A DNA stretch of 51,011 bases from Actinomycetota bacterium (GTDB lineage Bacteria > Actinomycetota > Actinomycetes > S36-B12 > GCA-2699445), in contig JAGQTY010000015.1 in NCBI GenBank assembly GCA_020438795.1, positions 1-51,011 of the forward strand, given 5' to 3'. Numbering within the stretch: the first letter of the stretch is position 1; every line of letters begins with the position of its first letter. The position numbers and the translations under genes were made by a program. The notes beneath the pieces were generated by a model, which was given only the letters and a program-made list of their open reading frames with translations, was not told the origin of the DNA and searched no databases. Shown in pieces: positions 22,418 through 42,024 of the stretch.

Positions 22418-23415
22418 ACGATCGGCTCAAGTTTTACCAGGTCGGCTCCTTCGCCGTCGGCAACCGGCTGGCCGAGGAGGGGCAGAAGGTCCAGTCCCGG
22501 CCCGACAGAACCAACGCGCTGAACAGCGGCCACCGTGCCTGCCAGGGCTGCGGCGAGGCACTGGGCGCCCGCTACGCCGTGGATGCCGCGGTGGCGGCCG
22601 CCGACGGCAAGCTCGTGGCGGTGAATGCGACCGGCTGCCTGGAGGTCTTCTCCACCCCGTATCCGGAGACGAGCTGGCGCATCCCCTGGCTGCATTCGGT
22701 GTTCGGCAACGCTCCCGCGGTCGCGGCCGGGGTCGCCGCGGCGATGCGGGCCAAGGGCACCCCTGAAGTCCGCGTCATCGGCCAGGCCGGCGACGGTGGC
22801 ACCGTTGACATCGGCTTCGGGACACTGTCGGGGATGTTCGAGCGCAACGACGACGTGCTGTTCATCTGCTACGACAACGAGGCGTACATGAACACCGGGG
22901 TGCAGCGATCGGGCGCCACCCCGCCCGCCGCGCGCACCATGACTACGCAAGCTGTGGGCCCGCACCCGGGCCAGCCGTTCGGTCAGGGCAAGGACATGCC
23001 CCGGATCGCGATGGCCCACGACATCCCCTATGTGGCTACCGCTTCTGTCTCGGACCTGCACGACCTCGAGCACAAGGTCACCAAGGCGATGTCCATGCAC
23101 GGCGCCCGCTACCTGCACGTCTTCGTGCCCTGTCCGCTGGGCTGGGGTGCGGCCAGTAAGGACACGATCCGCATCGCCAGGCTGGCGGTGCAGTCGGGCC
23201 TGTTCCCGTTGTTCGAGGCCGAGCATGGTCACATCACCTCGGTCACGAAGATCCGAAAACAGGCCCCGGTCGAGGAGTACCTGAAGCTGCAGCGCCGCTA
23301 CAGCCACCTGTTCGGTGAGCATCCCGACACCGAGACGATCGAGCACATCCAGCGGATCGCCAACGGCAATATCGAACGCTACGAACTGCTCCCGGATGCG
23401 GAGGACGACCGATGA
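22414..23415 (+). CDS. 2-oxoacid:acceptor oxidoreductase, beta subunit (TPP and Fe-S)
   Basis: A 333-residue protein whose start overlaps the alpha stop by four bases. The thiamine-diphosphate motif is clear: GQAGDGGTVDIGFGTLSGMF (GDG) through YDNEAYMNTGVQRSG. Cysteines in HRACQGCGEALG, NATGCLEVF and VFVPCPLGWG fit the ligands of the [4Fe-4S] cluster carried by beta subunits. It forms the active site with alpha and passes electrons to the ferredoxin domain of the next protein. The end overlaps the next start as ATGA. Confidence 0.9.
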   Translation: MNDRLKFYQVGSFAVGNRLAEEGQKVQSRPDRTNALNSGHRACQGCGEALGARYAVDAAVAAADGKLVAVNATGCLEVFSTPYPETSWRIPWLHSVFGNAPAVAAGVAAAMRAKGTPEVRVIGQAGDGGTVDIGFGTLSGMFERNDDVLFICYDNEAYMNTGVQRSGATPPAARTMTTQAVGPHPGQPFGQGKDMPRIAMAHDIPYVATASVSDLHDLEHKVTKAMSMHGARYLHVFVPCPLGWGAASKDTIRIARLAVQSGLFPLFEAEHGHITSVTKIRKQAPVEEYLKLQRRYSHLFGEHPDTETIEHIQRIANGNIERYELLPDAEDDR

Positions 23416-25061
23416 AGGACGAACCGTTCGCGATCACACTCGACGTCGGCTCCAGCCTCGCCAACAAGACCGGCACCTGGCGCACCGAGCGTCCCGTCTA
23501 CCTGAACCGGATGCCGCCCTGCAACGCGGGCTGTCCCGCCGGGGAGAATATCCAGCAGTGGCTGTATGACGCCGAGGACGGCGACTACGGGCGGGCCTGG
23601 CGCACGATCATGGCCGACAATCCGCTGCCCGCTGTGATGGGCCGGGTCTGCTACCACCCGTGCCAGAGCGCCTGCAACCGCGGCCAGCTCGACGAGGCCG
23701 TCGGGATCAACTCCGTGGAGCGCTTCCTCGGCGACCAGGCCCTGGCCAGCGGCTGGTCCGTACCGCCAGCCGAAGTTGACTCCGGCAAACGCGTGCTCAT
23801 CATCGGTGCGGGGCCCTCGGGTCTCTCCGCGGCCTACCATCTGCGCCGGCTCGGACACGAAGTCGTGATCCGCGAGGCGGGTCCGCATGCCGGTGGCATG
23901 ATGCGGTTCGGCATTCCGAGCTACCGGCTGCCCCGGGATGTGCTCGACGCCGAGATCGACCGGATCCGCGCCATGGGCGTGGCGATCCATCTGAACAGCC
24001 ATGTGCCCGACGCCCTGACGGCGATGCGCGATGGCGACTTCGACGCCGTGTTCCTGGCTGTCGGAGCTCACATCGGCAAGCGCGCCTATATCCCGGCCGG
24101 GGAGTCGGCGAAGATTCTCGATGCCGTGACGTTGCTGCGCGACACCGACGCCGAGGATCCACCGCAGCTCGGCCGCCGCGTCGTCGTCTACGGCGGCGGG
24201 AACACGGCCATGGACGCTGCCCGCACAGCCAAACGACTCGGTGCGGAGGAGGCGGTCGTGGTCTACCGGCGCAACCGGGACAAGATGCCCGCCCACGACG
24301 AGGAGGTACAGGAGGCTCTCGAGGAGGGTGTCCTGATGCAGTGGCTGTCCACCATCAAGCAGGTGGACGAGGGCTCGATCACTGTGGAGAAGATGGAGCT
24401 GGACGACAACGGCTTCCCCCAGCCCACCGGCGAGACCGAGACCCTGGACGCCGACTCGGTGGTCCTGGCCCTGGGCCAGAACGTGGATCTGAGCCTGCTC
24501 GACGAGGTCCCCGACCTCGAGATCGAGGATGGTGTCGTCAAGGTCGATGAGCACATGATGACCGGCTACCCCGGCATCTTCGCCGGCGGCGACATGGTGC
24601 CGAGCGAACGGACCGTGACCGTCGCCGTGGGACACGGCAAGCTGGCGGCCCGTTGCATCGACGGCTGGCTGCGTGATGAGCCCTATGTCCGGCCAGTACG
24701 GCCAGAACCTGCCCTGTTCGAGGACCTGAACACCTGGTATTACACCGATGCCCCCCGCACGCACCGGCTGAAGCTCGATGCCATCCGCAGGACCGACGAC
24801 TTCGCTGAGATCCGGGAGGGCCTCGACGAGGTGACTGCGATGTTCGAGGCCCGGCGCTGCCTCTCCTGCGGAAACTGCTTCAACTGCGACAACTGCTTCG
24901 GCGTGTGCCCGGACAACGCCGTGCGTAAGTTCGACCTGCACTCAGCCGCCGGGGACAACGGCAGGGACTACGCCTTCGACCTCGATTACTGCAAGGGCTG
25001 CGGCATCTGCGTCAGCGAATGCCCATCCGGAGCTATCAGGATGGTCCCCGAGGAGACCTGA
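23412..25061 (+). CDS. GltD-like NAD(P)/FAD oxidoreductase fused to a 2[4Fe-4S] ferredoxin (delta) domain
   Basis: A 549-residue protein. The N-terminus has a GltD-type Fe-S region (Cys37, 41, 80, 84, 88 in PCNAGCP and VCYHPCQSAC). Next come an FAD site VLIIGAGPSGLSAA (128-140), an NAD(P) site VVVYGGGNTAMDAARTA, and a flavin loop FAGGDMV. Residues 483-549 form a bacterial two-cluster ferredoxin: CLSCGNCFNCDNCFGVCP and CKGCGICVSECP. In effect it joins the delta subunit to an electron-transfer flavoprotein, so electrons from 2-oxoacid oxidation can reach NAD(P)+. The layout parallels the PadF and PadH subunits of NAD-linked phenylglyoxylate dehydrogenase, here in one chain. Substrate is unproven. 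Confidence 0.88.
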   Translation: MKDEPFAITLDVGSSLANKTGTWRTERPVYLNRMPPCNAGCPAGENIQQWLYDAEDGDYGRAWRTIMADNPLPAVMGRVCYHPCQSACNRGQLDEAVGINSVERFLGDQALASGWSVPPAEVDSGKRVLIIGAGPSGLSAAYHLRRLGHEVVIREAGPHAGGMMRFGIPSYRLPRDVLDAEIDRIRAMGVAIHLNSHVPDALTAMRDGDFDAVFLAVGAHIGKRAYIPAGESAKILDAVTLLRDTDAEDPPQLGRRVVVYGGGNTAMDAARTAKRLGAEEAVVVYRRNRDKMPAHDEEVQEALEEGVLMQWLSTIKQVDEGSITVEKMELDDNGFPQPTGETETLDADSVVLALGQNVDLSLLDEVPDLEIEDGVVKVDEHMMTGYPGIFAGGDMVPSERTVTVAVGHGKLAARCIDGWLRDEPYVRPVRPEPALFEDLNTWYYTDAPRTHRLKLDAIRRTDDFAEIREGLDEVTAMFEARRCLSCGNCFNCDNCFGVCPDNAVRKFDLHSAAGDNGRDYAFDLDYCKGCGICVSECPSGAIRMVPEET

Positions 25062-25120
25062 CTCGCGAGGCGAGATCGAAGCCAGCGACTGAGACCGCTG
25101 TCCATCCACAGCGAATAGGC

Positions 25121-25186
25121 ACATCAGACATGCTAGCCCTCCTTTGATATCATCAGATATCAAAGGAGGGCTAGCATGTCTGATGT
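25121..25186. repeat. 66-bp perfect palindrome covering vapB operator, Shine-Dalgarno and start codon
   Basis: Two perfectly complementary 31-bp arms (25121-25151 and 25156-25186) flank a 4-nt centre, ATCA. The core, TTGATATC-ATCA-GATATCAA (25144-25163), looks like an ordinary vapBC operator. The arms extend outward to take in AAAGGAGGG and the vapB ATG with the next two codons and more. In RNA the hairpin would bury the ribosome site. The left arm mirrors the same Shine-Dalgarno and ATG toward the other strand. Confidence 0.9.
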
Positions 25187-25394
25187 TCTCGTGCGCGACA
25201 TCCCGGACACGGCCCTAGCAGCGATCGACGCCAAGGCTCGCAGGCTGGGCTTGTCCCGACAGGAGTTTCTGCGGCGCCGGATCGTTGCGGCAGGTGGGGC
25301 GGACGCTCGAGTGACGACTGAGGACCTCGATCGAGTGGGGTCCGTCTTCGCGGACCTTGCTGACGAAGAGCTCATGAACAGAGCTTGGAGATGA
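25176..25394 (+). CDS. vapB: VapB/FitA-like ribbon-helix-helix antitoxin
   Basis: A 72-residue protein starting [21 protein letters not shown], the beta-strand plus helix opening of ribbon-helix-helix antitoxins, followed by [15 protein letters not shown]. The C-terminal part ([16 protein letters not shown]) is the toxin-wrapping segment. The Shine-Dalgarno AAAGGAGG lies seven bases before the ATG but inside the right arm of the long palindrome. It should neutralise the PIN toxin downstream and repress its own promoter by binding the GATATC operator. Stop and toxin start overlap as ATGA. Base composition is a little less GC-rich than neighbouring genes, as is common for mobile toxin-antitoxin pairs. 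Confidence 0.88.
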
Positions 25395-25804
25395 CGCAGG
25401 AGTGGCTCATCGACAAGTCGGCCTTCGTGCGTCTTGGTCAGGCCGCGGACAAGTCCGAATGGCTAGACCGAATCGAACGTGGACTCGTGCACGTCTGTAC
25501 GGTCACATTGCTCGAGATCGGCGATAGCGCCATAAGCAGCACAGCGCTTGAGGCTGAACGTCATCGGCCGCCACTCAGCGCACTGGTCCACGAGTACGCG
25601 ACTCCTGGTATCGAGGACAGAGCGATTCAGGTCCAATCTCTGCTCGCTCAACGCGCCCAGCATCGTGGGCCAGCGATCCCCGACATCTTGGTGGCCGCGA
25701 CCGCGGAACTGATGGACCTGACAGTCTTGCATCTGGACAAGGACTACGACCTGATAGCTGCCATCACAGGCCAACCAACGCAGCGATTGGCTGTTACGAC
25801 GTAG
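25391..25804 (+). CDS. vapC: VapC-type PIN-domain ribonuclease toxin
   Basis: The ATG at 25391 overlaps the antitoxin stop by four bases; the product has 137 residues, normal for the family. PIN-domain acidic residues are in place: Asp8 (WLIDKSAF), Glu42 (VTLLEIGDS), Asp98 ([11 protein letters not shown]) and Asp116 (LHLDKDYD). These bind Mg2+ and cut RNA, often tRNA or rRNA in this family. All four acids are intact, so the toxin is probably active. The target RNA cannot be predicted. Confidence 0.9.
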
Positions 25805-25853
25805 CCGCAGTCACTACTGGTGGGCTCAAGTCCGAGATAGGCGCGGCGACACG

Positions 25854-25882
25854 CATAGGCGGGACGCTCGGCCCGCCGTATG
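25854..25882. terminator. Hairpin between vapC and the convergent zinc-ribbon gene
   Basis: GGCGGG and CCCGCC form a 6-bp stem with an 8-nt loop, extended by CATA/TATG pairing past a one-base bulge. It lies in the 101-base gap between two convergent genes, so it could serve both. There is no U-run. Confidence 0.4.
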
Positions 25883-25905
25883 CCCCGAACAGTTTCAGCG
25901 GTGGT

Positions 25906-26097
25906 TCAGACGCTGCAGCTCATGTCGGAGCCGCAGCACATCGGCGACTTGATCTTGCCGTGGCCGTTGGGGCACTCCGAGATGCGCACGGTGGAGCCGT
26001 CGTCCTTGGTCAGCGTGGCGTCGACCAGGTCGGCGCCACAATGACCGCAGGTGGTGTTCGCGGACATGCCACAATTGGGGCAGGTGTAGGTAGCCAT
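25906..26097 (-). CDS. Small zinc-ribbon protein, unknown function
   Basis: A 63-residue protein rich in cysteine: CPNCG (residues 6-10), CGHCG (17-21), then CPNGHGKIKSPMCCG and a final SCSV. The first two CxxC pairs make a zinc ribbon; the later Cys/His set could bind a second metal. Such small ribbons occur widely in Actinobacteria without a firm role. No operon partner is apparent. Confidence 0.75.
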   Translation of the reverse strand: MATYTCPNCGMSANTTCGHCGADLVDATLTKDDGSTVRISECPNGHGKIKSPMCCGSDMSCSV

Positions 26098-30626: not shown

Positions 30627-32087
30627 CTACCGCCGGCTGACGATCGCCGGAATTCCGCCCCTGGGGCGCAGCGTCACCCGAGGCATCGGGACTGCCGCCG
30701 CCGGGTCCGCGGGCGTCAGCTCGAAGCGCCGTCCGATGATGGCCAGCGCGAGCGTGGCCTCAGTCAGCGCGAAGTGGTCACCGATGCACTTGCGGCCCGC
30801 GAAGCCGAACGGGAACCAGGCGCCGCGCGGGACTCCCGGCACCTTGTCGCCGAACTCCCCCTCGCGGGTGAGCCAGCGTTGCGGCCAGAATCGCGAGGGA
30901 TCGTTCCAGAACCTCTGATCACGATGCATCCAGTACTGGGAGGCCACCAGGATGGACCCTGCCGGTATCTCATAGCCGCCCAGCTCCAGATCGACCGTAG
31001 GCTCTCGGTCGAAGGCCCAGGCCGGCGGATACACTCGCAGCGATTCGTTCAGCACGGCACGCGTGCGAGGCAGTTCGGCCATCGAGGCCATGGACAGCGA
31101 CGAGTCCTGCGGGACGACCCGGTCCCACTCCTCCTGGACCCAGTCCTTGACGGCCCTGTTCTGCGACAGCGCCAGCCAGGTCCACGACAGCAGCATGGCG
31201 GTGGTCTCGTGCCCGGCCATCGCCAGGGTGATCACCTCGTCGTGGATCTGCTGGGCAGACATGCCCAGACCGGTCTGCGGGTCACGGGCGCGCAGCAGCG
31301 TCGCAAGGGCGTCAGCAGGGTCCTCGCCCCGATCCAGCTGCTCCTGCTTGCTGGCGATGTGGCTGGCGATGACCTGCTGCAGGGCCTCGACGTTGGAGAC
31401 GATCCGGCGCCGAGCGCGGGAGGGATACCTGCTTTGCAGCGCCCAGAGCGGCGACATCGAGGTCTGGAAGGAGTCGAGCACGGCCGACAGCGGCCGGGCG
31501 ATGCGCTCGGCATCCTGACTGAAGTCCGTGCCCAGGATCGTGTCGCCGACGATCTCGAGGGTGAGCTCGGACATCTCGTCGGCGACGATGATGCGGGGAT
31601 CGTCACGCTCCTCCCAGCGCTGCACCAGTTCATTGCTCCTGCGCACCATGGCATCGGCATACCCCGCGATCTGCCGCCGGGTGAAGGCGGGTTGCACCAG
31701 GCGGCGGTGCTCCCGGTGCGCCTCCCCCTCGCTGGTGAGGATGCCGTCACCCAGCAGTGGCCGCGTGGATCGCAGCGCGAAGCCCTTGTGCATGTCTGCG
31801 GCCCGGGTCACGAAGACCTCCCAGACCAGGTCTGGGTCGGCCAGCCCGTACACGACCCGGTCGGGAAACTGTGCACAGCCGACCGAGCCGACGCTCAGCA
31901 TCGCATTCGTGAACTCCAGGGACGGCACCTTCTTGCGCAGTAGCATGCGCAGGGTCTGGCTGGTGCTCAGCCCGGGCGGGAGCACTTCTGCTGTTCGATA
32001 GCGACGGCGTCGATCCAGCGCATCTCTGCGATTCTCGTGGATCCGCTCGAGTGCCGGGGTGAGGGTGGGGGCCGGTGCTGCGGTCAT
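30627..32087 (-). CDS. Cytochrome P450 monooxygenase
   Basis: A 486-residue P450. The I-helix oxygen-binding motif is AGHETT (291-296), the ExxR is ESLR (348-351), and the heme loop is FGFAGRKCIG with Cys434. The usual Gly at the fourth heme-loop position is Ala. Its length and the N-terminal pattern (HKGFALRSTRPLLGDGILTSEG, HREHRRLVQPAF) resemble P450s that hydroxylate fatty acids or terpenoids rather than the shorter CYP153 alkane hydroxylases. No ferredoxin or reductase is nearby. The ATG at 32087 has GCAGGAG upstream, inside a palindrome. It shares an operator with the AlkB gene at 42 kb, so a hydrocarbon or lipid substrate is a reasonable inference. Confidence 0.92.
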   Translation of the reverse strand: MTAAPAPTLTPALERIHENRRDALDRRRRYRTAEVLPPGLSTSQTLRMLLRKKVPSLEFTNAMLSVGSVGCAQFPDRVVYGLADPDLVWEVFVTRAADMHKGFALRSTRPLLGDGILTSEGEAHREHRRLVQPAFTRRQIAGYADAMVRRSNELVQRWEERDDPRIIVADEMSELTLEIVGDTILGTDFSQDAERIARPLSAVLDSFQTSMSPLWALQSRYPSRARRRIVSNVEALQQVIASHIASKQEQLDRGEDPADALATLLRARDPQTGLGMSAQQIHDEVITLAMAGHETTAMLLSWTWLALSQNRAVKDWVQEEWDRVVPQDSSLSMASMAELPRTRAVLNESLRVYPPAWAFDREPTVDLELGGYEIPAGSILVASQYWMHRDQRFWNDPSRFWPQRWLTREGEFGDKVPGVPRGAWFPFGFAGRKCIGDHFALTEATLALAIIGRRFELTPADPAAAVPMPRVTLRPRGGIPAIVSRR

Positions 32088-32137
32088 CGCGACTCCTGCT
32101 TTACATTCTTAGGTCTAATGTAAAGCAGGAGTCGCGA
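32087..32137. repeat. Inverted repeat with 21-bp perfect arms over the P450 ribosome site
   Basis: Arms at 32087-32107 and 32117-32137 are perfectly complementary, with a 9-nt centre. The left arm begins at the A of the P450 ATG and includes its Shine-Dalgarno, so the transcript could fold over the ribosome site. Inside lies the operator at 32099-32125. Confidence 0.85.
32099..32125 (-). promoter_or_regulatory. Operator CTTTACAT-N11-ATGTAAAG upstream of the P450
   Basis: Perfect 8-bp half-sites with an 11-base spacer, 11 bases before the start codon. The same half-sites at the same spacing occur before the AlkB gene (41998-42024). A TetR-type dimer is the likely binder; the TetR encoded after alkB is the obvious candidate. 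Confidence 0.65.
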
Positions 32138-32285
32138 GCCGTCAATGCCGGCACCCGAATGCGCACAGGGTGACCCGGCCCCAGTGCCCCCGCCTCTGCC
32201 CCTGTATGGCATTGCTGGGCTCGCCGCTGGGAGTCAGAGCGAAAGGACCCCAGCAGCGCCTTGACAGGACGCCGGGCAGACCGGG

Positions 32286-33056
32286 TCAGGGCCGGAACCG
32301 CTTGGTGAGCACCGTCGAGACCCGGGCGGAGAGCCGGGGCGGGGACATCTGCGCGGATGCGAGGAGCACTCTGTTGGCCAGCCCAGGAGTCGAGGAACGC
32401 CGGCCCTTCTTCAGGTCCGTGAGAGCCTGGCGCACCACTGCCTCGGGTTCGAGCCACAGCCAGGACGGCACCGAGGACCGCGAGACCCCGGCGCGATCAT
32501 GGAACCTGGACAGGGTGTAGCCGGGGTGCAGCGCCATGACCGTGATCCCGCTGTCCGCAACCTCGTCGGCGAGCGCATAGCTGAAACTGGTCACGAACGC
32601 CTTGGTTGCGCCGTATACGGCCTGGAACGGCATCGGTTGGCCGGCAGCCGTCGATGACACGTTCACGATGGAGCCGTTCCCGCGGGCCACCATGCCGGGC
32701 AGTGCGGCATGAGACAGCGCCACCACGGCCGTCACGTTCACATCAACCTGACCGGTGTCGTAGTCCGGGTCCTGCTCCAGGAATGCGCCGTAGGTGCCGT
32801 ATCCCGCGCTGTTGACAAGCAAGGTGACGTCGTCGTCCCGAAGCCGTTCACTCACCTGTGCCTGACCGGCCGGGCCCGACAGGTCAGCGGCGAGCGTGTC
32901 CACCTGAACACCAGTGGCCCGCGACAGCCCAGCTGCGACGGTGGCGAGCTCCTCCCTGCTGCGCGCCACGAGCACGAGCGACTCACCCAGAGCACTGAGC
33001 GCTTCGGCGAATGCCAGACCGATGCCACTGGTCCCGCCTGTGATGACCGCCGTCAC
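32286..33056 (-). CDS. Short-chain dehydrogenase/reductase (SDR)
   Basis: A 256-residue classical SDR from a GTG whose first bases overlap the upstream amine oxidase stop (GTGA). The cofactor loop is ITGGTSGIG at the very N-terminus, NSAGYG follows (NNAG-type), and the catalytic residues are Ser in VNVSSTAA and YGATK (Tyr-x3-Lys). LHPGYT is the usual loop after the active site. A His/Arg near the cofactor 2-prime position (VARSREEL) suggests NADP(H) preference. Coupling with the amine oxidase suggests the two act on related substrates, for instance an amine-derived aldehyde or ketone, but this is inference. Confidence 0.88.
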   Translation of the reverse strand: MTAVITGGTSGIGLAFAEALSALGESLVLVARSREELATVAAGLSRATGVQVDTLAADLSGPAGQAQVSERLRDDDVTLLVNSAGYGTYGAFLEQDPDYDTGQVDVNVTAVVALSHAALPGMVARGNGSIVNVSSTAAGQPMPFQAVYGATKAFVTSFSYALADEVADSGITVMALHPGYTLSRFHDRAGVSRSSVPSWLWLEPEAVVRQALTDLKKGRRSSTPGLANRVLLASAQMSPPRLSARVSTVLTKRFRP

Positions 33057-40159: not shown

Positions 40160-40747
40160 TCAGGAATCGGAGAGGGACTCCGGAAGCTCCGAGAGCAACG
40201 AAGCCGCCACCCAGGCGATTGCTTCCGCAGCCCTCCCGGTGCTGATGGTGGGAGCGGTGATGTGACTCATCACCAGCCGCACGATCGACTCCACAGCGAC
40301 GAGCAATTCGTCCTGTGGAATCGGCTGGTCGGGATGCTCAGTCTCGATGCGAGCGACAATCATGTCCCCGGCAGAATCGATGATCGGCTGCGCCTGGGTG
40401 GTCAGCAACGGCAGCAGGTCGGAGTTGGCACCGTGCACCGAGGAGAGTACTGCGCGCATCAGGACGTTCTCATCTGCCATCGTGAGCACCCGGCTCACCG
40501 CCCTCTGGATGCCGAGCACCCGGTCGTCAGTCGAGGACAGTTCCTCCTCGACAGCGGCCAGGAACTTGGCGAGCTCCTGCGCGACGATCGCGTCGGCGAG
40601 TGCCGGCTTGCTCCCGAGCTCGTTGTACACCGTCTGCCGCGAAACCCCCACGCGCTGCCCGAGCTTGGCCATCGTCAGGGAGGCCCAGCCGTTCTCCGCA
40701 GTGAAGACGGCGGCCTCGTCAAGCAGCCGTTGCCTCAGATCGGTCAT
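40160..40747 (-). CDS. TetR-family regulator linked to alkB
   Basis: A 195-residue protein from the ATG at 40747. The helix-turn-helix reads LTMAKLGQRVGVSRQTVYNELGSKPALADAIV. The C-terminal domain is all-helical. It lies directly downstream of the alkane hydroxylase gene on the same strand (57-base gap), the arrangement found in other actinobacterial alkB loci where the TetR protein senses fatty acids or alkane-derived compounds and represses alkB. It is therefore the best candidate to bind the CTTTACAT-N11-ATGTAAAG sites before alkB and the P450. Confidence 0.85.
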   Translation of the reverse strand: MTDLRQRLLDEAAVFTAENGWASLTMAKLGQRVGVSRQTVYNELGSKPALADAIVAQELAKFLAAVEEELSSTDDRVLGIQRAVSRVLTMADENVLMRAVLSSVHGANSDLLPLLTTQAQPIIDSAGDMIVARIETEHPDQPIPQDELLVAVESIVRLVMSHITAPTISTGRAAEAIAWVAASLLSELPESLSDS

Positions 40748-40804
40748 GCATCCCACCCAACACCAGGCCCGGTCGCATACTATCCGGCCCGCCGATGGCA
40801 GCAA

Positions 40805-41974
40805 CTACCGCACTTGGTTGTTCTGATCCCGCTGCGCCACACCGACCATCGCATTCGCGCGTGACAGGTCCCCCTCGTAGTGCGCAGCGACCCGCGGGTC
40901 CATGACACGGAACCAGAGGGGCGGGCACAGCGCGAGGGTGATCATCCCCGCATATCCGGTCGGCATGACCGGCGCCTCAGCGAAGTCCCGCAGCGCCTGG
41001 TAGCGGACCGTTGGATTGGCGTGATGGTCGGAGTGGCGCTGCAGGTGATAGAGGATCACGTTGGTTGCCACGTTGTTGCTGTTCCAGGAGTGCCGGGGCG
41101 CCACCTTCTCATAACGACCCCCGTTCACCCGTTCGCGCAACAGGCCATAGTGCTCGATGTAGTTGACCAGTTCCAACAGCAGAATCCCGACCGCCGCCTG
41201 GATCACCAGGTACGGGATGACTGCGAAGCCGAGGACGAATATCACCGCGAGCCAGAGAACCGCGGTCAGCAGCCAGGCGTTGAGGACATCATTGCGAATG
41301 CTCCACACCGACTTGCCGCGGCGCCGGAACCGCGGCTGTTCCAGGCCCCACGCATGCCTGAGGCTCCCGAGGACCGTGCGCGGCACGAACCGGTAGAAGC
41401 TCTCACCGAAGCGGGCGCTTGCGGGATCCTCAGGTGTCGAGACCCTGGTGTGATGGCCCCGGTTGTGCTCGACGTAGAAGTGTCCGTATCCGGACGGCGC
41501 CAGCGCGACCTTGGACAACCAGCGCTCCAGGGTCTCCCGCTTGTGACCGAGTTCGTGGGCGGCGTTGATGCCCAGGCCCGACACCATGCCGACCGACAGG
41601 GCCAGACCGATGCGACCGAACCAGCTGAGACCGCCGTCGACCCAAAGATAGGCGCCGAGCAGCAGAGCCGCGTACTGCACCGGTATGAAGGCGTATGTGA
41701 GCCAGCGGTAGTAGCGATCTGCCTGCAGAGCGGCCAGCACCTCCTCCGGAGGATTCTCCTTGTCGAGTCCTGCGACCAGATCGATCACGGGCACGACGAC
41801 GAACAGCATCAGCGGACCGAGGTAGTAGAAGGCCTCCCACCCGGTCCAGCTGGCAAGCCCCCATGCCAGGAACGGCAGAGCGGGCATCACGAGACCGGTG
41901 AGCCATAGGTAACGCTTGGGATCACGCCAGGAGGCAATGACCTCCCCGGAGCTCGATGTTGCCACATACTCCAC
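40805..41974 (-). CDS. alkB: AlkB-type membrane alkane 1-monooxygenase
   Basis: A 389-residue integral membrane protein from a GTG at 41974 with GAGGAGG just upstream. The eight-histidine di-iron signature is complete: HELGHK (140-145), EHNRGHH (169-175), NYIEHYG (271-277) and LQRHSDHH (311-318). The flanking text (TPEDPASARFGESFYRF; NSNNVATNVILYHLQRH) matches alkane hydroxylases rather than fatty-acid desaturases. It inserts oxygen at the terminal carbon of alkanes, using electrons from rubredoxin. No rubredoxin or rubredoxin reductase is encoded nearby or fused, so these must be elsewhere. A TetR regulator follows and a perfect operator precedes it. Confidence 0.92.
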   Translation of the reverse strand: MEYVATSSSGEVIASWRDPKRYLWLTGLVMPALPFLAWGLASWTGWEAFYYLGPLMLFVVVPVIDLVAGLDKENPPEEVLAALQADRYYRWLTYAFIPVQYAALLLGAYLWVDGGLSWFGRIGLALSVGMVSGLGINAAHELGHKRETLERWLSKVALAPSGYGHFYVEHNRGHHTRVSTPEDPASARFGESFYRFVPRTVLGSLRHAWGLEQPRFRRRGKSVWSIRNDVLNAWLLTAVLWLAVIFVLGFAVIPYLVIQAAVGILLLELVNYIEHYGLLRERVNGGRYEKVAPRHSWNSNNVATNVILYHLQRHSDHHANPTVRYQALRDFAEAPVMPTGYAGMITLALCPPLWFRVMDPRVAAHYEGDLSRANAMVGVAQRDQNNQVR

Positions 41975-41997: not shown

Positions 41998-42024
41998 CTT
42001 TACATCTAGAGCATATATGTAAAG
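41998..42024 (-). promoter_or_regulatory. Operator CTTTACAT-N11-ATGTAAAG upstream of alkB
   Basis: Perfect 8-bp half-sites with an 11-base spacer, 23 bases before the alkB GTG. Half-sites and spacing are identical to the site before the P450 at 32099-32125, although the two 11-base spacers differ. This points to one regulator for both hydroxylases. Confidence 0.7.

Follow-up and report, generated by a model that had tools for sequence, protein, structure and literature searches.

A 66-bp perfect palindrome over the vapB start: a predicted operator-promoter core whose right flank was probably copied inversely, with possible sealing of read-through RNA

In a draft genome of the Actinomycetota, a perfect 66-bp palindrome covers the predicted operator, the Shine-Dalgarno (SD) sequence and the start codon of a vapB antitoxin gene. 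We consider it reasonably probable that this palindrome arose when the right flank of a predicted vapBC operator-promoter core was inversely copied leftward, and that the sealing of vapB in read-through RNA is a side effect of the copying; we infer both origin and effect from the comparisons and folding predictions given below. In the mechanism that we propose, a DNA polymerase would have folded back on the inverted repeat of the operator and copied its own new strand to give the left arm. The right flank, with the ribosome site, the ATG and 8 bases of vapB, would in this way have come to be mirrored on the left side without a mismatch. Transcription of vapBC would start in the right half, so that its mRNA has an open ribosome site, while RNA from the co-directional upstream gene would form a 31-bp hairpin in which the vapB ribosome site and start codon are both sealed. 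The copying event, however it was fixed, would thus also insulate vapB translation from read-through.

Results

A 66-bp perfect palindrome takes in the vapB operator-like core, ribosome site and start codon

The window, that is, the whole stretch of DNA analysed (51,011 nucleotides), is one entire contig (C66) of a 3.58-Mb draft genome with 212 contigs and 88.1% completeness. The first-pass annotation of this DNA had described a 66-bp palindrome with mismatch-free 31-bp arms and a 4-nt centre, and inverted-repeat analysis of the window confirmed this: the two arms of 31 nt are 100% complementary and flank the spacer ATCA (Table 1). It had also placed the vapB operator-like core, SD and ATG inside the palindrome, and all three were indeed found there, namely the core TTGATATC/GATATCAA, the SD AGGAGG and the ATG (25176-25178, inside the right arm), followed by 8 further bases of the arm. 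On the minus strand, the left arm yields a mirrored SD and ATG that open a 31-codon frame at 25131; the consensus scan found no promoter for this mirrored frame.

Table 1. Positions of the features in the window, with the basis of each assignment
Feature	Position	Strand	Basis or remark
Oxidoreductase gene, co-directional, upstream; possible read-through source	23412..25061	+	Pfam
Left arm of 66-bp palindrome, likely the copied arm	25121..25151	.	25-nt pairing past half-site
Predicted promoter CAGACA-17-TATCAT, TG before -10	25125..25153	+	Consensus scan; -10 at 25148-25153
Operator-like core GATATC-N4-GATATC common to vapB family	25146..25161	.	Comparison of vapB promoters
Palindrome centre ATCA, 4 nt	25152..25155	.	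T25153 is final base of predicted -10
Right arm, likely template: half-site, SD, ATG + 8 bases of vapB	25156..25186	.	
Predicted vapBC transcription start	25159..25162	+	6-9 nt past -10, from promoter scan
vapB Shine-Dalgarno AGGAGG	25164..25169	+	Sequence
vapB antitoxin gene, ribbon-helix-helix, 72 aa	25176..25394	+	NF050181, 96.4 bits, cut-off 60
vapC PIN-domain toxin gene, 137 aa	25391..25804	+	PF01850, 29.4 bits, cut-off 23.6
Cytochrome P450 gene, 486 aa	30627..32087	-	PF00067
Second palindrome, 21-nt perfect arms, 9-nt centre	32087..32137	-	Covers SD + A of P450 ATG
Predicted P450 promoter TTGACG-17-TACATT, -10 in inner left arm	32117..32145	-	Consensus scan
TetR gene after FA_desaturase-domain gene	40160..40804	-	Pfam (PF00487, PF18556, PF00440 for the pair)
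FA_desaturase-domain gene	40805..41974	-	Pfam PF00487, PF18556, PF00440 for 40160..41974 pair
Other copy of operator-like core CTTTACAT-N11-ATGTAAAG	41998..42024	-	Arms not extended

Base composition predicts 4.7e-12 occurrences of 31-nt arms (spacer 0-20) in the window and 1.7e-10 in 1.83 Mb. Our survey covered 121 stretches including the window, in all 1.83 Mb or about half of the genome, and found 85 perfect inverted repeats with arms of at least 11 and a spacer of at most 20. The vapB palindrome is the longest, followed by one with arms of 21, also in the window, and then by arms of 18. Length by itself is not unique to this genome, because control loci of other genomes (173 loci, 1.09 Mb) reach perfect arms of 29 (L136) and 26 (L005), neither repeat spanning an SD and a start. 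The former (L136:354-411) has a zero centre and the latter (L005:2924-2990) lies within a G-rich repeat. An assembly error in this draft of 212 contigs is an unlikely source of the left arm.

The palindrome lies at the start of a vapBC pair with a conserved core

VapB matched the ribbon-helix-helix antitoxin model NF050181 above its cut-off and scored 20.6 bits against PF01402 (cut-off 20.5); its nearest solved chain is 3h87_C. The ATG of vapC overlaps the vapB stop. VapC matched PF01850, and the NCBIfam VapC model scored 21.3 bits on it, under its cut-off of 80. Residues D8, E42, D98 and D116, which we take to be the catalytic acidic residues, are invariant in a 30-sequence alignment that includes VapC itself; the PF01850 match and these four residues mark the protein as a PIN-domain VapC with an acidic active site. 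Listings give 23 contigs with an identical VapB, the longest of 315,018. Plasmid relatives of VapC amounted to 15 records with at best 64% identity, and a search of viral contigs for the left-arm pattern gave no hit. The four neighbours examined were oxidoreductase, FUSC and haem peroxidase genes and one small ORF with no Pfam match; none was a transposase by Pfam, so this is not the setting of a transposable element. The end of the oxidoreductase gene lies 59 bases from the left arm.

To compare vapB promoters, we used the best 80 of 272 VapC relatives in named genomes, plus further genomes. A total of 144 loci were scripted, duplicates included, and eight loci fetched by operator pattern were left out. 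This gave 93 distinct vapB starts with a core, our own included, 89 with a 4-nt spacer and four with 3 nt. The first-pass annotation had suggested aligning orthologous promoters, and across these 93 the alignment showed that the core GATATC-N4-GATATC alone is shared; as the script seeks GATATC-like halves, the half-site conservation is partly selected, the spacer letters being left free. An earlier, smaller count of 74 cores in 80 called loci held four loci from a pattern fixing the T, and its start motif, which missed several loci, was widened for the count of 93. On this core, vapBC is predicted to be repressed as usual by VapB(C).

The spacer is asymmetric. Of the 89 promoters, 79 have T at spacer base 2 but only 8 have A at the mirror position, with 72 discordant pairs versus 1 when relatedness among loci is ignored. 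This conserved asymmetry reads as a -10 box, TATC[A/G]T, directed at vapB. A consensus scan of 24950-26000, a kind of evidence that is weak in organisms of this kind, found a single promoter-like site, with its -10 in the left half-site and spacer. No -35 box was enriched in the family at spacings of 12-23, so vapBC may have an extended -10 promoter. The position of the -10 implies a transcription start within the right half-site (Table 1), and the gene's own mRNA would therefore lack the left arm.

Folding predictions separate read-through RNA from the gene's own mRNA

As RNA, the 66-nt palindrome was predicted to form the full stem at -58.3 kcal/mol (z -14.9 versus shuffles), and a 150-nt read-through RNA gave a z of -10.5. 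The gene's own mRNA from 25159 folded no better than shuffles (z -0.1). The predicted probability that the SD is unpaired was 0.65 in RNA from 25156 versus 0.0007 in read-through RNA. RNA from 25153 was shuffle-like overall, but a pairing between its initial 8 bases and the region of the ATG is possible and would leave the SD looped; with a start as early as 25153, the vapB ribosome site would therefore not be fully open. The first-pass annotation had proposed that an mRNA hairpin hides the ribosome site. The full hairpin over SD and ATG was recovered in read-through RNA, whereas the own mRNA was predicted to be open. A hairpin in the vapB mRNA itself is doubtful, given the predicted start in the right half and the shuffle-like RNA from 25159, with the pairing of the ATG region in RNA from 25153 as the point in its favour. 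The 31-bp hairpin would come into play only in read-through RNA or in transcripts begun further upstream, where the scan of 24950-26000 showed no promoter.

We found no terminator-like site in 24950-26000. Read-through from the oxidoreductase gene is plausible because that gene is co-directional and no terminator-like site precedes vapB. The palindrome itself was ruled out as the intrinsic terminator of the upstream gene, as its stem has no T run, and a known leader RNA or riboswitch was ruled out by the lack of Rfam matches at gathering score in 24900-25500.

Sealing was also evaluated across the family, in 58 of the 69 other orthologues in the set, the remainder having no SD found by the script. 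For their read-through RNA the probability of an unpaired SD was 0.344, compared with 0.333 (sd 0.015) after flank swapping; values below 0.1 occurred in 7 orthologues, versus 2-11 in flank swaps, with no excess. Sealing is thus not conserved in the orthologues, which counts against an old, selected insulation function.

A second palindrome at a P450 gene has the same layout

The second palindrome lies 7 kb from the vapB one, at the start of a cytochrome P450 gene, and its layout is the same (Table 1). The promoter scan of 31950-32350 found 1 site versus a shuffle mean of 0.0. A dehydrogenase gene in the same direction as the P450 gene ends 148 bases ahead of this palindrome. Two such palindromes within 7 kb are odd for a purely random mutational event. 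Among P450 orthologues (28 with enough upstream sequence, of 29 others), no arms longer than 10 were found near the start; at 38-50% identity these are too distant, and we do not count the result as evidence.

We then surveyed start-covering repeats more widely. A loose SD test flagged 9 of the 85 repeats of this genome (arms of at least 11): the vapB and P450 palindromes and seven that were set aside. Only at vapB and P450 does a strong SD stand at the usual distance from where a recognised gene begins. Among the others, L175:12982-13019 (arms 16) has AAGGAG 12 nt from an ATG and no scored promoter, L263 (arms 18) has GGAG only and TTG starts, and L169, L250, L257, L260 and L262 (arms 11-12) have weak SDs or GTG/TTG starts. 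The repeat at L175:12982-13019 holds a TTGACAA/TTGTCAA core just before a gene for an HTH_20 regulator, presumably ArsR-like, which is paired with a gene for an AHSA1 protein. A stricter survey returned 1 of 2,081 starts in this genome (P450; vapB is under its length limit) and 0 of 1,006 in the controls.

Arm extension fits a proposed copying seeded at the operator

Pairing past the core half-sites runs for 25 bases in our palindrome and for at most 9 in the 92 other vapB promoters. Four of these have in-register extensions of 9 (L047), 7 (L097), 6 (L005) and 5 (L082) bases, and the other 88 of at most 3. The 5-base extension in the L082 promoter takes in AGGAG. Four of 92 promoters with at least 5 bases compare with a swapped-flank mean of 0.31, and only 4 of 20,000 swaps produced as many as four; we set the threshold of 5 bases after the long arms had been seen, and P values ignore relatedness among loci. 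The result was weaker in a smaller first set, where 2 of 73 had extensions of at least 5, a count that 1.6% of swaps attained, and where flank pairing was 0.300 versus a swap range of 0.254-0.294. Because 224 of 20,000 swaps yield a single extension of at least 9, the evidence is the number of extended loci and not the longest of the four. The excess of short in-register extensions fits template switching seeded at the operator.

The arms are centred exactly on the dyad of the core. At both vapB and P450, the perfect repeat is in register with a pre-existing one, the centre being the spacer of the core. Orthologues carry the core only, and all are too distant to be the ancestor. Copying from right to left may be the simpler direction, because the arm with the vapB start fits the family and the other arm does not. 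Of the origins that the first-pass annotation had considered, a recent one agrees with these data: the palindrome looks recent or lineage-specific, its long arms having no counterpart in orthologues.

Discussion

Alternative explanations

The left arms could instead have evolved, or been kept, to seal read-through RNA, as in the transposase genes of IS10 and IS50, the two palindromes then being regulatory design. This explanation overlaps with ours in effect and differs in cause, and we regard it as unlikely. It would account for the features that vapB and P450 have in common, namely a -10 in the inner left arm, a predicted start in the centre or right arm, an SD in the right arm and a co-directional upstream gene, and for the finding that none of the 41 control repeats with arms of at least 13 (1.09 Mb, 173 loci) holds an SD and a start. 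Against it, sealing is not conserved among vapB orthologues, just two of the nine repeats flagged by the loose test combine a strong, normally spaced SD with a recognised gene and the stricter survey yielded a single start, and the perfect identity of the arms exceeds what sealing requires.

The model of the first-pass annotation, in which the whole hairpin forms in vapB mRNA and the folding of this RNA or the rate of its transcription governs how much antitoxin is made, is improbable. A start upstream of 25121 would place the -58.3 kcal/mol hairpin over SD and ATG, but the sole promoter-like site of 24950-26000 sits inside the palindrome, the family preserves the direction of the -10, and orthologues with this promoter core show nothing equivalent to the long left arm.

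We give still less credence to an extended operator, with the long arms providing extra VapB(C) or TetR sites or a cruciform that tunes repression. The arms share their register with the dyad of the operator, as this would predict, yet they contain no further GATATC, 88 of the 92 other operators extend by 3 bases or fewer, and the operator copy at 41998-42024 is unextended. Least credible is an artefact, a left arm produced by assembly or library fold-back, since, draft assembly notwithstanding, the arms lie mid-contig with abrupt ends, the left flank leads straight into the upstream gene, and a second case is in register with another operator-like core.

Relation to known systems

In IS10 and IS50, the end repeats hide the ribosome site of the transposase mRNA in RNA from outside, while the element's own promoter lies inside and its own mRNA is open. 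The vapB palindrome would resemble this arrangement in having a predicted promoter inside, its own RNA open and outside RNA sealed, according to the folding prediction. It differs in that the vapB and P450 palindromes lie on chromosomal antitoxin and P450 genes. Antisense and Hfq control are mentioned for IS10 in PMC8450116.

Inverse copying as we propose it has a described counterpart in E. coli, where template switching at quasipalindromes makes imperfect repeats perfect (PMC7202029). As there, an imperfect inverted repeat would have become perfect, in register and in one step; the difference is that the seed at vapB is a predicted repressor operator and that the copy reaches the ribosome site and the start of the coding sequence. 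Template switching has also been put forward as a way in which RNA stems arise (PMC8794818), and inverted repeats are described as enriched near regulatory regions in bacteria (PMC10434271). By title or abstract start, our literature search returned no palindrome of a vapB or other operator that extends over the ribosome site.

The locus is like other VapBC pairs of the NF050181 group (nearest solved chains 3h87) in its ribbon-helix-helix antitoxin, PIN toxin and overlapping genes, and in the operator-like core before the SD, as in the 92 other vapB promoters. It differs in its arms, which run 25 nt beyond the core half-sites.

More generally, and only tentatively, bacterial operators may seed template switching in which the 5' leader is mirrored onto the far side of the promoter. 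In one step, this would turn ordinary autoregulated genes into read-through-proof cassettes whose ribosome-binding site is open only from their own promoter. Operators are short inverted repeats beside the ribosome site, where replication fold-back can have most effect. If they do seed template switching, one mutation can create a regulatory hairpin, and a gene can be insulated from its neighbours without a terminator. The two cases in the window, together with the partial ones in a few vapB promoters, make operator seeding testable.

A further copy of the P450 operator-like core

The P450 core CTTTACAT-N11-ATGTAAAG has one other copy in the genome (at most 3 mismatches over 18 fixed bases). 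This copy likely belongs to the adjacent pair of an FA_desaturase-domain gene, which we take by its motifs to be AlkB-like, and a TetR gene (Table 1). The operator copies at the P450 and AlkB-like/TetR genes may possibly form a small regulon that links the AlkB-like gene and the P450. With at most 3 mismatches, the pattern was found in four of eight family genomes, versus one of eight for the reversed control. Near the site in G007 (L306), no protein match to AlkB-like, TetR or P450 proteins was found. In G003 (L303) and G005 (L304), sites with 3 mismatches lie 77 and 94 bases, respectively, before the matched start of FA_desaturase-gene homologues that are 63-65% identical.
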